The notes beneath the pieces were generated by a model. It did no database searches. It was not told where the DNA came from and was given only the letters and a program-made list of their open reading frames with translations. A program made the position numbers and the translations under genes. Source: Sphaerochaeta sp. (GTDB lineage: Bacteria; Spirochaetota; Spirochaetia; Sphaerochaetales; Sphaerochaetaceae). From it: a stretch of 64,000 nt of DNA. The DNA lies in NCBI GenBank assembly GCA_018399495.1, contig JAGYOG010000007.1:1-64000 (forward strand), written 5' to 3'. Of this stretch, positions 20,475 to 55,783 are shown piece after piece; the stretch's first letter is position 1; the number at the start of each line of letters is the position of its first letter.

Positions 20475-20859
20475 CACTACTCCAATTAGTAAAATTGTTC
20501 TTACAATCCTCAATCAAAAGCGTAACATAGCCGCCTTTGTCAGAAAAGCTGGTATTCTGTATTTCCAATCACCCTTCATAATACCCTCAAATTGGCATCA
20601 TAGGGGAATTTAAATGTGGCTAAAAGCTTATGTAACCTAGGACCTACGCATTAAACCCATCTCATACGACATTCCCAGCATACGCTTTCAGGGTTATCGA
20701 GGCCGTCAGAGGCTTGTATGAAACCAATTTATGAGGTGTTTTGGAGATTTACGGGTGCATAAGGATAACCCAGGACATACCAGGAGATCCACTGTCCTGG
20801 TGGATCCCCATCTGTCCATGGCCTTGGCGCACTTTCGGTTAAGTAGTCTTTCTCGGTAT

Positions 20860-22182
20860 AATCTCCACAGATTTCGCGAAGGTGAGAGTGGGTCCATCAG
20901 CGTCAGCGCTTGGGACATGGCATCGTTGAAGTTCCAGCCGAAGATTTTCCTCAGCCTTTTCTTGCTGATCTTCTGTGTTCCCCCTATGAGGTCGCTCATC
21001 TTCTTGTACAGTGAGAGACATGCCTTGTTTACAATATGCTCTGGTTGAGGCTGCATTCCTGTCACTCAGGGCCATGTCATCCTCGCGAAAGGTCGTATCA
21101 AGGTTCCAGTGCGGTTGCTCATTAAAATATTTTTCGCATAAAATCATCCAATGGGAACGTATGCAATGAGCTGCATCTGAGATGTCCTTCAGGCTGGTAA
21201 GATAGTAACGGGCCTCGTTCACCTCTTTTCCGGTAACGTTGTGGATCATCGTCTTGACCATGCATACCACAGAGAAGACCTTCTTCCACTCCGAAAACAG
21301 CCCTTTCTTCTCGCTTGAGGTCAGTGGGTAGAGATAAAAGGATCTCTGCTCGAGCTGGTTGTGGCTGATCTCACTCGTCATATGGTAGCAACCATCAATA
21401 CTCTTGAGCTTCTCCTTATTCTCTTCCGTAAATAGTGTCTTGGCAAATTCAGTGGCTTTCCCCTGGTTACCCTTCAGGCCCCCTATATAGTCACCTTTTG
21501 ACTCGGCAATGATGCTGATGGTCTTGGTTTGCATATGCATGGCATCGAAGGTGACCACAGTGTCCTTGAGGTTCATCCTTGCGAGAATCTTCTGGGCATG
21601 AGGGATTTCATTTGTCTTGGATTCTATCGCCTCGGAGAAGAGACAGGTTTCCGTATCCTGCTCATATATATTGAGAATCTGCAGGTCTTTGATCTCTTGC
21701 TCTGTGTCTGCCTTGCGCCCTGTGCCCCTGAGTTGCTTGCCATCCACCGACACTATCCTTTTGGGAGGGGTCGGTAGTTTCAGCGCCTTCCTGATTGCTG
21801 TATCCGAATTGTGCAATACGCTTACCAGCAATGCATTGAGCTCCTCGGCCCTGATGATGGAGAGGACTCTCCTGAATGTATCGTGGCTGGGGATGGTCTC
21901 CTTGCCGAACAGGCGCCTGTAGAGCTTGGCGTTGCTCATCCAGAAATCCTGTGTGGACAGGCAGCTCTCAGATCCGGCCAGCGTGGCGAGAAACAGCATG
22001 AGGATGACCTCACCAAGCGGGTAGATAGTCCGTCCCTGGACCCTGCAGTCGGGTACATCTCCAAACAGTTTCAGTATCTTCTTTAGTATCCGGATCCTCG
22101 TCTCATTGCCTGCATCCTTTACCTTGATGGTGCTGGAAGACTGGAAATCCTCGATTTGCATCTTCAGTGTCTCAAACTTCAT
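20860..22182 (-). pseudogene. ISAs1-family transposase, frameshifted near its C-terminus
   Basis: The start MKFETLKMQIEDFQSS has GGAGG upstream. Visible family motifs are IVSVDGKQLRGTGRK, VVTFDAMHMQTKT (Asp residues of the DDE triad), CIRSHW and HWNLDTTFREDDMALSDRNAA. At about 21040-21060 the frame shifts, and the true C-terminus continues in another frame as NKACLSLYKKMSDLIGG and KISKKRLRKIFGWNF. The uninterrupted frame runs to 20839 with an unrelated tail. The protein is probably non-functional unless frameshifting is programmed. The end at 20860 is approximate. Confidence 0.8.
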
Positions 22183-22807
22183 GATGGGAGCCTCCAAGTT
22201 CAAACGGTATCGAATGCTTCGTGCCAAGATGCTTCAGCCGCTCGGATATATCCGAAAGATGCCACCCCCCGTTCACATGCACGGCATACAGGTTTGAAGA
22301 AAGTGCAAGCATCTCACCAAAATCAGGCCCAAGGCGGTCTCTCAGCTTCGACTCGACCTGTCGTCTCATGATTGGGAGGTATTGCTCCTCTCCCTTCGTC
22401 AAGGTCCTGTTCAAATCTATTTCAGGAAACAGTATGGAAAACCAGCTGCCTTCATGTCCAAGCTGGTTTTCTTTGCCCTCTATGCCAAGGGCTGCCTTCA
22501 TCAGCAGGAGATCTGCATCGAGGCCGAGCCTCTTGGGATGCTTGGTCAGCACTCTGCATGAGGTTTCGACGATATGGCAGAACCCATAGCGGAGGACCCT
22601 GATTGCAGGCTTGACTGGCGGTCTCGATGGCACAAGCCCTTCCTGTTCGGTGACAATCCCCAGGTATTCGTCACAACGGAATACCGGGTAGCTCTTTCCT
22701 GGCACCCGCTCTGAATGGCCCCGATACAGGGCGTACCCATGCTTGGTCTTTTTCGTATAGATTCCCTTGGTCTTGTACTTGAGAACCCAATCAGGCAATG
22801 GGGGCAT
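22172..22807 (-). CDS. Unrecognised first ORF of the ISAs1-like element
   Basis: The 211-residue product starts MPPLPDWVLKYKTKG, with AGGAG upstream in the region shared with the MITE. It contains GYALYRGHSERVPGKSYPVF and CDEYLGIVTEQEGLVP, reminiscent of N-terminal parts of some DDE transposases, and is otherwise unfamiliar. Its stop overlaps the transposase start by 11 bases, which suggests coupled translation. It lies inside the terminal repeats, so it is cargo or an accessory transposition protein. Ordinary ISAs1 elements have only the transposase gene. Confidence 0.6.
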   Translation of the reverse strand: MPPLPDWVLKYKTKGIYTKKTKHGYALYRGHSERVPGKSYPVFRCDEYLGIVTEQEGLVPSRPPVKPAIRVLRYGFCHIVETSCRVLTKHPKRLGLDADLLLMKAALGIEGKENQLGHEGSWFSILFPEIDLNRTLTKGEEQYLPIMRRQVESKLRDRLGPDFGEMLALSSNLYAVHVNGGWHLSDISERLKHLGTKHSIPFELGGSHHEV

Positions 22808-23096
22808 GGTGTGAATCTCCTGTATTAAGTGCAGTTTAATACTCTGTAAAAAGAAAAGCAAGAGAAAAAGTGAATCCACCCTCAAAAATGAGGTTCCCCT
22901 CAACTTTTTCATCTTGCTTGTATGCTTGCATCACAACAAGTTGTCATTCATTTCCAACTATTTGGTGCGTAACTCCTACATCTCCAGATGCGCTGAGATA
23001 TTTTTTATTCCTCAACGGAGCGAGGGTATTTTTTGTAATATAATCAATTGCTTGTGTCTTTTTAAGACACTTGATTCTCGAGCGAGTGCAGGAAAA

Positions 23097-53218: not shown

Positions 53219-53591
53219 GTTTCTCTCCTTACAAAAGATTGCGTGATGTCGTTGATAGTACTCGAAGAACCTCAACTGTTTCAAATTATACGGGACGTTT
53301 TTCCTGCTGTCAAAACAATATTGAGAAACCTTTAGCAATGGGAAACGCAGTTTGCTTAGTATATTTATAGGTAAATTTAAAAATGAACTAGGAAAAATTC
53401 ACTTTACCGAAATATGTATTTTTTTATGAATTTGTGCAGAAAGTAGGGCGACTGTGGGGGTATTTGTTGCAAAGGTAAAAAAATGTTGCATATTATAGTA
53501 TAAGGTGTAGTAAAATTGGTAATATAAGTAACTGGCTAACCCTTTCATGCAACAAAAATACAGTTGAATATAATCAAAATAGATGTGTAAG
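53219..53591. other. AT-rich gap upstream of the binding-protein gene
   Basis: The 373-base gap has the operon promoter at its near end and then 250 bases of AT-rich sequence up to the IS element. No ORF, riboswitch or repeat is recognised in the rest. Confidence 0.6.
53285..53313 (-). promoter_or_regulatory. Consensus promoter of the nucleoside ABC operon
   Basis: On the minus strand TTGACA (53308-53313), exactly 17 bases and TATAAT (53285-53290) match the sigma-70 consensus in full. It gives a leader of about 60 bases before the binding-protein ATG. Confidence 0.85.
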
Positions 53592-55440
53592 CCTACGATA
53601 AACCCAAAAGTAGAACCATATCCTACTCAACCCTCTTAGTACCGTTGATTCTTGCATTTCAGAGCACTTTTTCCCACTTTTAGTTGCATTCTGAAGCCCT
53701 TTGGTGTATCCTGTATATGGTTATACTTATAACTATATACAGGTAGCTGAGAGGTAGGGACTCATGGCATTCATAAAAGCGCAGAAACTGGTGAGAAATG
53801 AGGATGGGAGTGTCAGGTCAGGCAGCGCCGCGATCATGACTACTGAATACGACTCCTCATACAAAGGGCGGTCCCGTCATAGAACCAGAGAGAAGCTTGG
53901 AAAAGTTATATCTCTAGATGCCACAGGGAAAAGTGGAGTGTTCCTGTCTCCGACCAGAGGGCTTGTAGCCTATGATTCGGTATCCGATACCTTTGAAATC
54001 ATTGGAAAGGAAGATTCAAGGATCAAGGGCAGTGACCTCTTTGCGGAGCCCGAAATTCATACTGTTTTCGGTGATGTCTACCTCTTTCTCCAGTTTTGTC
54101 AAAAATCAGGCCTGCTCAGGGTTCTGCGGAAGGCTTTTTCACAAGACAAGGAGTACGAGAGGGTTCTTTCGCATCTGCTTCACTCGGTCCTGAAGGACGG
54201 GTCCAAGGTCTCTTGCGACGATTTCATTGGCAAATCCTTCGCTTCCTATCTTTTTGATGAGATTCCCTCCGGTTCCCTTGGGAGCGATACCGTATACTTC
54301 TCTATGATGGGCGAAGACACAAGCAGGGTTGCCTTCTTCAAGGCGTTTGTCTCCCATATGAGAACAACCGATTCTGAGTTTGGCACCAGTTGCTACGTTG
54401 ATTCGACACCCTTGCCCAATACCATCCGGGACAACCCGTTCAACGCCCTGTGCAGCCATGGGATAGAATCTACCTCCATCCAGACAAGGCTGGTACTCGT
54501 ATTGGATGATAAGACGGGTTTCCCCGTATGGTATTCAATTATACCCGGCAACGTCCTGGACCTGAGCACCCTCCAATCGACAATGGAGGATGTAGCCGAA
54601 ACTCTTGATATCTGCATCAGCAATTTCGTGCTTGATGCAGGGTATGCAAGCAAGGCCCTGATCGAGGCATTCCATTGTGGTAACGAGAAGGGAAAAACCA
54701 TGACCGTGCGCATGCCTGCAAAGAACGGCTATCCACACAAAACTCTTTACCATCAGACAAAGAAGTTGATGGGTAATGCCAAGTATGAGTTCATCCGACA
54801 TGGCCACACCTATTTCGGCAAGCATTTCGAGACCGACATCTTCGGGCTCAAGATGCATGCCTATGTATATGTGGACAAGGACAATGCTCTGGAAGGGAGC
54901 AGGAACTACCGCCTGAAACATGAGGATGAATACCAAGCTATGACAGACAAGGAGAAGAACTGGACTTCTGTACGATTCGGCTTCTTTGTCCTTCTTTCCA
55001 CCGAGCTGAAAGAACCTGACGCTAAGCTGGATGACTATTTTGGCAGGACCCAGATCGAGACAGTGTTCAAGACCAGCAAGGAGTACTTGAACCTGCTGCC
55101 GCTATCCAAATGGTCGGATCTTACCGTCAGGGGAAAGATTCTCTCTGATATCATATCGACCATCGCCTTGTTGCAAATGAGGAAAAAACTCTCAAAACCT
55201 GGCATTTCAACATGCAAGCTGATAGGGAAGACCCAGTCGCTCATGTGCACAAAGAAGAAGGATGGGACGATGATTATTGAAGTCCCGAACAAGCAGGTCA
55301 GGGATTTCTATCAGGAGCTGAAGGTGAAAGTGCCATCTTCACTAAACCTGAAGGAGTTCAAGGCTGATACCCTAAAACTGAAAGCTAACGTGTCAAAAAA
55401 ATGAACTGATTTATGGTTCTACTTTTGTGTTTATCGTAGG
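53592..55440 (+). mobile_element. Complete IS1634-like insertion sequence, 1849 bp
   Basis: Terminal inverted repeats of 26 bp, starting CCTACGATAAAC, lie at 53592-53617 and 55415-55440 with one mismatch. A 5-bp direct repeat GTAAG flanks the element at 53587-53591 and 55441-55445. It has one intact transposase gene and shows no decay, so it is a recent insertion and may be active. Confidence 0.92.
53764..55404 (+). CDS. IS1634-like DDE transposase
   Basis: The 546-residue protein has the DDE residues in SCYVDSTPLPN, NFVLDAGYAS and FGRTQIETVFKTS. An N-terminal region of the IS1634/IS4-type (RHRTREKLGKVISLD) precedes them. It is full length. The ribosome site is GAGGTAGGG ahead of the ATG. 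Confidence 0.9.
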   Translation: MAFIKAQKLVRNEDGSVRSGSAAIMTTEYDSSYKGRSRHRTREKLGKVISLDATGKSGVFLSPTRGLVAYDSVSDTFEIIGKEDSRIKGSDLFAEPEIHTVFGDVYLFLQFCQKSGLLRVLRKAFSQDKEYERVLSHLLHSVLKDGSKVSCDDFIGKSFASYLFDEIPSGSLGSDTVYFSMMGEDTSRVAFFKAFVSHMRTTDSEFGTSCYVDSTPLPNTIRDNPFNALCSHGIESTSIQTRLVLVLDDKTGFPVWYSIIPGNVLDLSTLQSTMEDVAETLDICISNFVLDAGYASKALIEAFHCGNEKGKTMTVRMPAKNGYPHKTLYHQTKKLMGNAKYEFIRHGHTYFGKHFETDIFGLKMHAYVYVDKDNALEGSRNYRLKHEDEYQAMTDKEKNWTSVRFGFFVLLSTELKEPDAKLDDYFGRTQIETVFKTSKEYLNLLPLSKWSDLTVRGKILSDIISTIALLQMRKKLSKPGISTCKLIGKTQSLMCTKKKDGTMIIEVPNKQVRDFYQELKVKVPSSLNLKEFKADTLKLKANVSKK

Positions 55441-55453
55441 GTAAGACTCTAGT

Positions 55454-55669
55454 TAGGAGTTACGCATAAAATGGTTGAAAGCGAGTGACAATTGGTTGCA
55501 CTACAAGCATAAGAGCAAGACGAGAAAGTCGAGAGAAACCTCATTTTGAGGCAGAATTCGCTTTTTCTCTTGCTTTTCTTTTGCCGTATATTAATCTTTA
55601 CTTAATACATTCGATGCCATGCATATGCCCGTAGGCATCTGTCAAGAAGAGTTTAGTGCGTATGTCCTA
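55454..55669. mobile_element. 216-bp MITE derived from the ISAs1-like element
   Basis: The left end TAGGAGTTACGCATAAA and the right end (read inward on the minus strand) TAGGACATACGCACTAAA match the ends of the 20638-22978 element. The left ~165 bp align with that element's left leader, and the last 19 bp match its right end at 17 of 19 positions. Flanks AGACTCTAGT (55444-55453) and AGTCTCTAGT (55670-55679) form a 10-bp target duplication with one mismatch. There is no ORF. Confidence 0.8.
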
Positions 55670-55783
55670 AGTCTCTAGTGAACCATGCGAATTGAGACTT
55701 GTATCACACTAATGCAAGTGATAGGATGAAGCGACTAGCTTTTCCAGATTTTAGATTGTGTATTAGTAATGAAGGATTATTGC

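Follow-up and report, generated by a model that had tools for sequence, protein, structure and literature searches.

Elements of the ISAs1 family create target duplications of 8–10 bp and typically, though not by strict definition, carry one transposase gene within about 1.2–1.6 kb. Type I bacterial MITEs share their ends with an insertion sequence (IS) (for the type I/II usage, see PMC3542288); MITEPye1 of Paracoccus yeei, a type I MITE with IS1182-type ends, occurs in 1–3 copies per chromosome (PMC11578231). Within the window, by which we mean the whole stretch of 64,000 nucleotides analysed, the 216-bp sequence at 55454–55669 (+ strand) resembles type I MITEs such as MITEPye1 in being small, intergenic (it lies between two genes) and free of a transposase gene, and in having IS ends in the form of terminal inverted repeats common with an autonomous element, a flanking duplication matching at 9 of 10 bases, and a foldable RNA. 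It differs from them in keeping a 156-bp leader and a scrap of transposase gene, and in being single-copy, so that the short form may or may not have moved: one copy is present in its own assembly (92 contigs, 88.6% complete), and the only other candidate is a degenerate 319-bp relic in a congener. Its likeness to the ISAs1 family lies in a related full-length element, whose transposase scores 204 bits against the ISAs1 model NF033564 (cut-off 70), and in target duplications of 9–10 bp; it departs from that family in that the full-length relatives are 2.3 kb long and have an additional gene, ORF1, upstream of the transposase, and in that the 216-bp element itself is without transposase. We read it, with a probability of roughly 0.93, as a single-copy, non-autonomous internal-deletion derivative of a two-gene ISAs1-family element, inserted by DDE transposition from a source other than the full-length copy at 20638–22978. 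The features on which this reading builds, namely both ends, the leader homology, a transposase relic, the 9/10 duplication and an uninterrupted site in relatives, were seen directly.

The element starts with TAGGAGTTACGCA and finishes with TGCGTATGTCCTA. Sequence inspection and a pattern search placed its left terminal inverted repeat, TAGGAGTTACGCATAAAA, at 55454–55471 (+), and the right repeat, TAGGACATACGCACTAAA as read on the minus strand, occupies 55652–55669 and is identical to the left at 14 of 18 positions. A preliminary description had given the element these same boundaries and had matched both termini to the element at 20638–22978, which proved exact. An own-genome search aligned element positions 1–156 with 22978–22821 on the minus strand (E 4e-31; 79% of bases identical), and the two elements lie in opposite orientations. 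Local alignment of 55454–55669 with 20638–22978, the check that the preliminary description had proposed against chance similarity beyond the first 20 bp, gave a leader score of 147 compared with ≤ 29 for 500 shuffles, the similarity running far past those 20 bp. With alignments so far above shuffles and an own-genome E-value of 4e-31, chance resemblance to IS ends is a negligible explanation. The leader common to the full-length elements (55454–55609, +, 77–79% identical) is thus real, but is 156 bp long and not the roughly 165 bp at first claimed; similarly, the right-end match, first put at 19 bp, is genuine and spans 25–26 bp, with 84% identity to the window copy and 88% to an intact relative. 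Overall the right end was assigned to 55640–55669 (+), of which the last 26 bp match intact elements and the last 30 bp match the congener's 319-bp relic (83%).

The coding part, which had been described as gone, has left a trace. Positions 55610–55628 (+) are an exact 19-bp match to the transposase gene of the window copy (score 38, ≤ 28 for 500 shuffles) and hold the codons for FDAMHM, a motif that presumably contains the second catalytic Asp of the transposase; the relic lies in order between both ends. Measured against a full-length element, the piece extends to 22 bp, element positions 154–175 matching 1427–1448 with one mismatch (E 9e-6). Three pieces are collinear on one full-length element, 1–158, 1427–1448 and 2291–2316 (the last corresponding to 2317–2341 in the window copy), and about 11 bp between the transposase relic and the right end (55629–55639) were left without assignment. 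An in-order transposase scrap of 19–22 bp shows that the short element arose by internal deletion, as the preliminary description had held for this ISAs1-type family. Since the pieces keep the order and strand that they have in the full-length element, no fewer than two such deletions must have occurred. A search of Rfam at the short element returned just a sub-threshold chance match nearby.

Flank comparison identified AGACTCTAGT (55444–55453) and AGTCTCTAGT (55670–55679) as the left and right target duplications, identical at 9 of 10 bases; of 8429 positions sampled in the window, just 1 had flanks matching this well at the same spacing, which upholds the near-perfect 10-bp duplication previously noted. 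A congener and sister species (G114) has four complete copies of the full-length element, each 2316 bp, about 92% identical to the window IS, with long open frames and the same ends as the short element. All four are bounded by perfect duplications, CTACATCCCC, CGTGAATTGC and AATTGAGTTG of 10 bp each and ATCGATGGA of 9 bp. These copies fix both the ends and the duplication length of the family; the 10-bp length at the short element fits, as had been supposed for an ISAs1 element, and the 9/10 decamer becomes credible as a target duplication. A further match in G114 (L043) was set aside as a fragment with the right end only.

The orthologous gene junction, between genes for a PnrA-like binding protein and a polysaccharide-export function, contains neither the short element nor its IS1634-like neighbour in 7 relatives. 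In these the two flanks, once joined, can be aligned across the site with small gaps only, the intergenic sequence being so poorly conserved among relatives that the empty site is not readable base for base; a conserved block just 5′ of the export gene is intact and lies downstream of both insertions. The neighbour is a separate IS1634-like element (53592–55440, +; transposase 53764–55404; ends CCTACGATAAAC) that stops 13 bp from the short element. It has a possible 5-bp duplication, GTAAG (53587–53591 and 55441–55445), which overlaps the left duplication copy of the short element; this claim is tentative, since a second copy of the IS1634-like element, in G102, has no such 5-bp duplication. 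Related copies of the same element are present in several congeners.

The window's full-length copy (20638–22978, minus strand), recognized by profile search and alignments, is the only full-length relative in its own assembly and belongs to the same family, but it is decayed. Its ISAs1-family transposase gene (20839–22227, minus strand) carries several frameshifting indels, and an insertion stands in place of IENSLHW, which we take to be the catalytic-Glu region; neither defect is found in the four G114 copies, and in a draft assembly an assembly error is a possible source of these indels. No target duplication was found at the flanks of this copy. A distant two-gene relative also has an ISAs1-type transposase (NF033564, 248 bits). 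In addition, contig SABC01000125.1 (L027:73–1543), labelled as a Bacteroidia MAG, carries a 94% identical IS 3′ part, reflecting either transfer or mis-binning.

At 2316 bp with ORF1 plus transposase, the full-length relatives do not have the usual single-gene organization. ORF1 (22172–22807, minus strand) encodes a 211-aa companion protein, starting at an ATG after AGGAG; it is directly upstream of the ISAs1-type transposase in the relatives whose contig continues, and throughout the class it has been retained by two-gene relatives. Pfam and NCBIfam gave no match. IS1634-family transposases from two family members resemble a 7-sequence ORF1 profile over their first ~135 residues (hhalign 96.9%, E 1.5e-10, and 84.7%, E 6.6e-6). 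In IS1634-family proteins this N-terminal region is joined to the catalytic domain, whereas here it is encoded by a separate gene beside an ISAs1-type catalytic protein, and the two products may represent a split transposase whose front domain is separately encoded. The neighbouring IS1634-like transposase was considered as a homologue of ORF1 and rejected, no homology being found. A PDB fold search with an ORF1 model (pLDDT 86) gave no significant match, and a search for ORF1 in plasmids found none. No description of two-gene ISAs1 elements was found among the papers searched, nor did these include an ISAs1-derived MITE of this kind.

The leader of the short element contains a long hairpin (55511–55577, +; fold z −4.35), terminator-like in its T-rich 3′ side and tail. 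Of 7 family members, 5 retain this hairpin; four full-length relatives have z-scores between −2.7 and −4.9, and neither the 319-bp relic (z −0.26) nor one distant relative has a significant fold. Within the short element the hairpin could halt transcripts arriving from the IS1634-like transposase, and one may ask whether the element was retained as a terminator that shields the downstream export gene from such read-through. The strong plus-strand hairpin with its T-rich tail and its loss in the degenerate relic speak for retention of this kind; we nevertheless consider it unlikely, because the same hairpin, looking like a terminator there too, precedes ORF1 in full-length elements and is thus inherited, because a simple consensus terminator scan called no terminator at 55511–55577, and because covariation is thin, with one compensated pair.

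Further copies with different flanks had been suggested as a check on mobility, and were sought in 139 family genomes with the whole element as DNA query, combined with an end-pattern search over genus and family. None with paired ends was found, no other closely spaced inward-facing end pair occurring in the 138 other family genomes. The degenerate relic in congener G107 (L022:3309–3627) has the same leader and a recognizable right end, shows no clear target duplication, and is an independent shrunken copy; it also has weak matches to the transposase and to IS 3′ sequence. Single end-pattern matches in G100, G101 and G104 were discarded since they ran into unrelated sequence beyond the end, as were two in viral contigs that had neither a second end nor any matching protein.

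These results bear on how the short element came to be where it is. The preliminary description took 20638–22978 as the parent, which would have mobilized the derivative in the present lineage. In an assembly that is 88.6% complete, that copy is the sole full-length relative, and it has both ends in common with the short element, but direct parentage is very improbable: its leader is about 80% identical to that of the short element versus 98% to those of the G114 elements, which belong to another species, its transposase is frameshifted and without the presumed catalytic-Glu motif, and it is without a target duplication. The short element would most likely have come instead from another, unsampled sub-lineage. 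Nor is it borne out, with a single copy in the assembly and no paired ends in the 138 other family genomes, that the short form was mobilized in this lineage. A full-length ISAs1-type element may equally have inserted and then shrunk in place to 216 bp, the short form never having moved, which is a sub-case of the derivation preferred here. Shrinkage in place agrees with that single-copy distribution, with the similar build of the congener's degenerate relic, which has no clear duplication, and with the decay under way in the window's full-length copy. Against it, both ends and the duplication are almost intact while about 2.1 kb was lost in at least two steps, and random decay often takes the ends too. 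We give even odds to the other order of events, deletion before insertion followed by movement of the short form in trans, and in-place deletion fits about equally well.

Under the internal-deletion origin that we favour, deletions would have removed ORF1 and nearly the whole transposase gene, leaving the left end with its leader, the transposase scrap and the right end. An ISAs1-type transposase would recognize the TAGGASNTACGCA ends; judging from the family, it would cleave and join them, and staggered joining would duplicate 9–10 bp of target in the intergenic region. The source would be a sub-lineage diverged by about 20% in the leader from the 20638–22978 copy. Weighing on the other side are the single mismatch in the duplication, the overlap of its left copy with the possible GTAAG duplication of the IS1634-like neighbour, the imprecisely read empty site and the failure of the searches to turn up another copy of the short form.

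As a shrunken IS, the short element is of an ordinary kind. It is useful for defining where elements of this IS branch begin and end, and the leader, hairpin and right end that it has in common with the full-length copies suggest sequences possibly required in cis. More noteworthy is the presence of two genes in its relatives, in that the partner protein resembles the front portion of transposases from another family. It is conceivable, although we rate this somewhat below an even chance, that the full-length relatives form a distinct two-gene ISAs1 branch in which the catalytic protein, of ISAs1 type, has a separate IS1634-type N-terminal protein as its working partner, and in which the pair is under the control of the hairpin leader or insulated by it; such a two-protein transposase would then have the 216-bp element as a minimal substrate.
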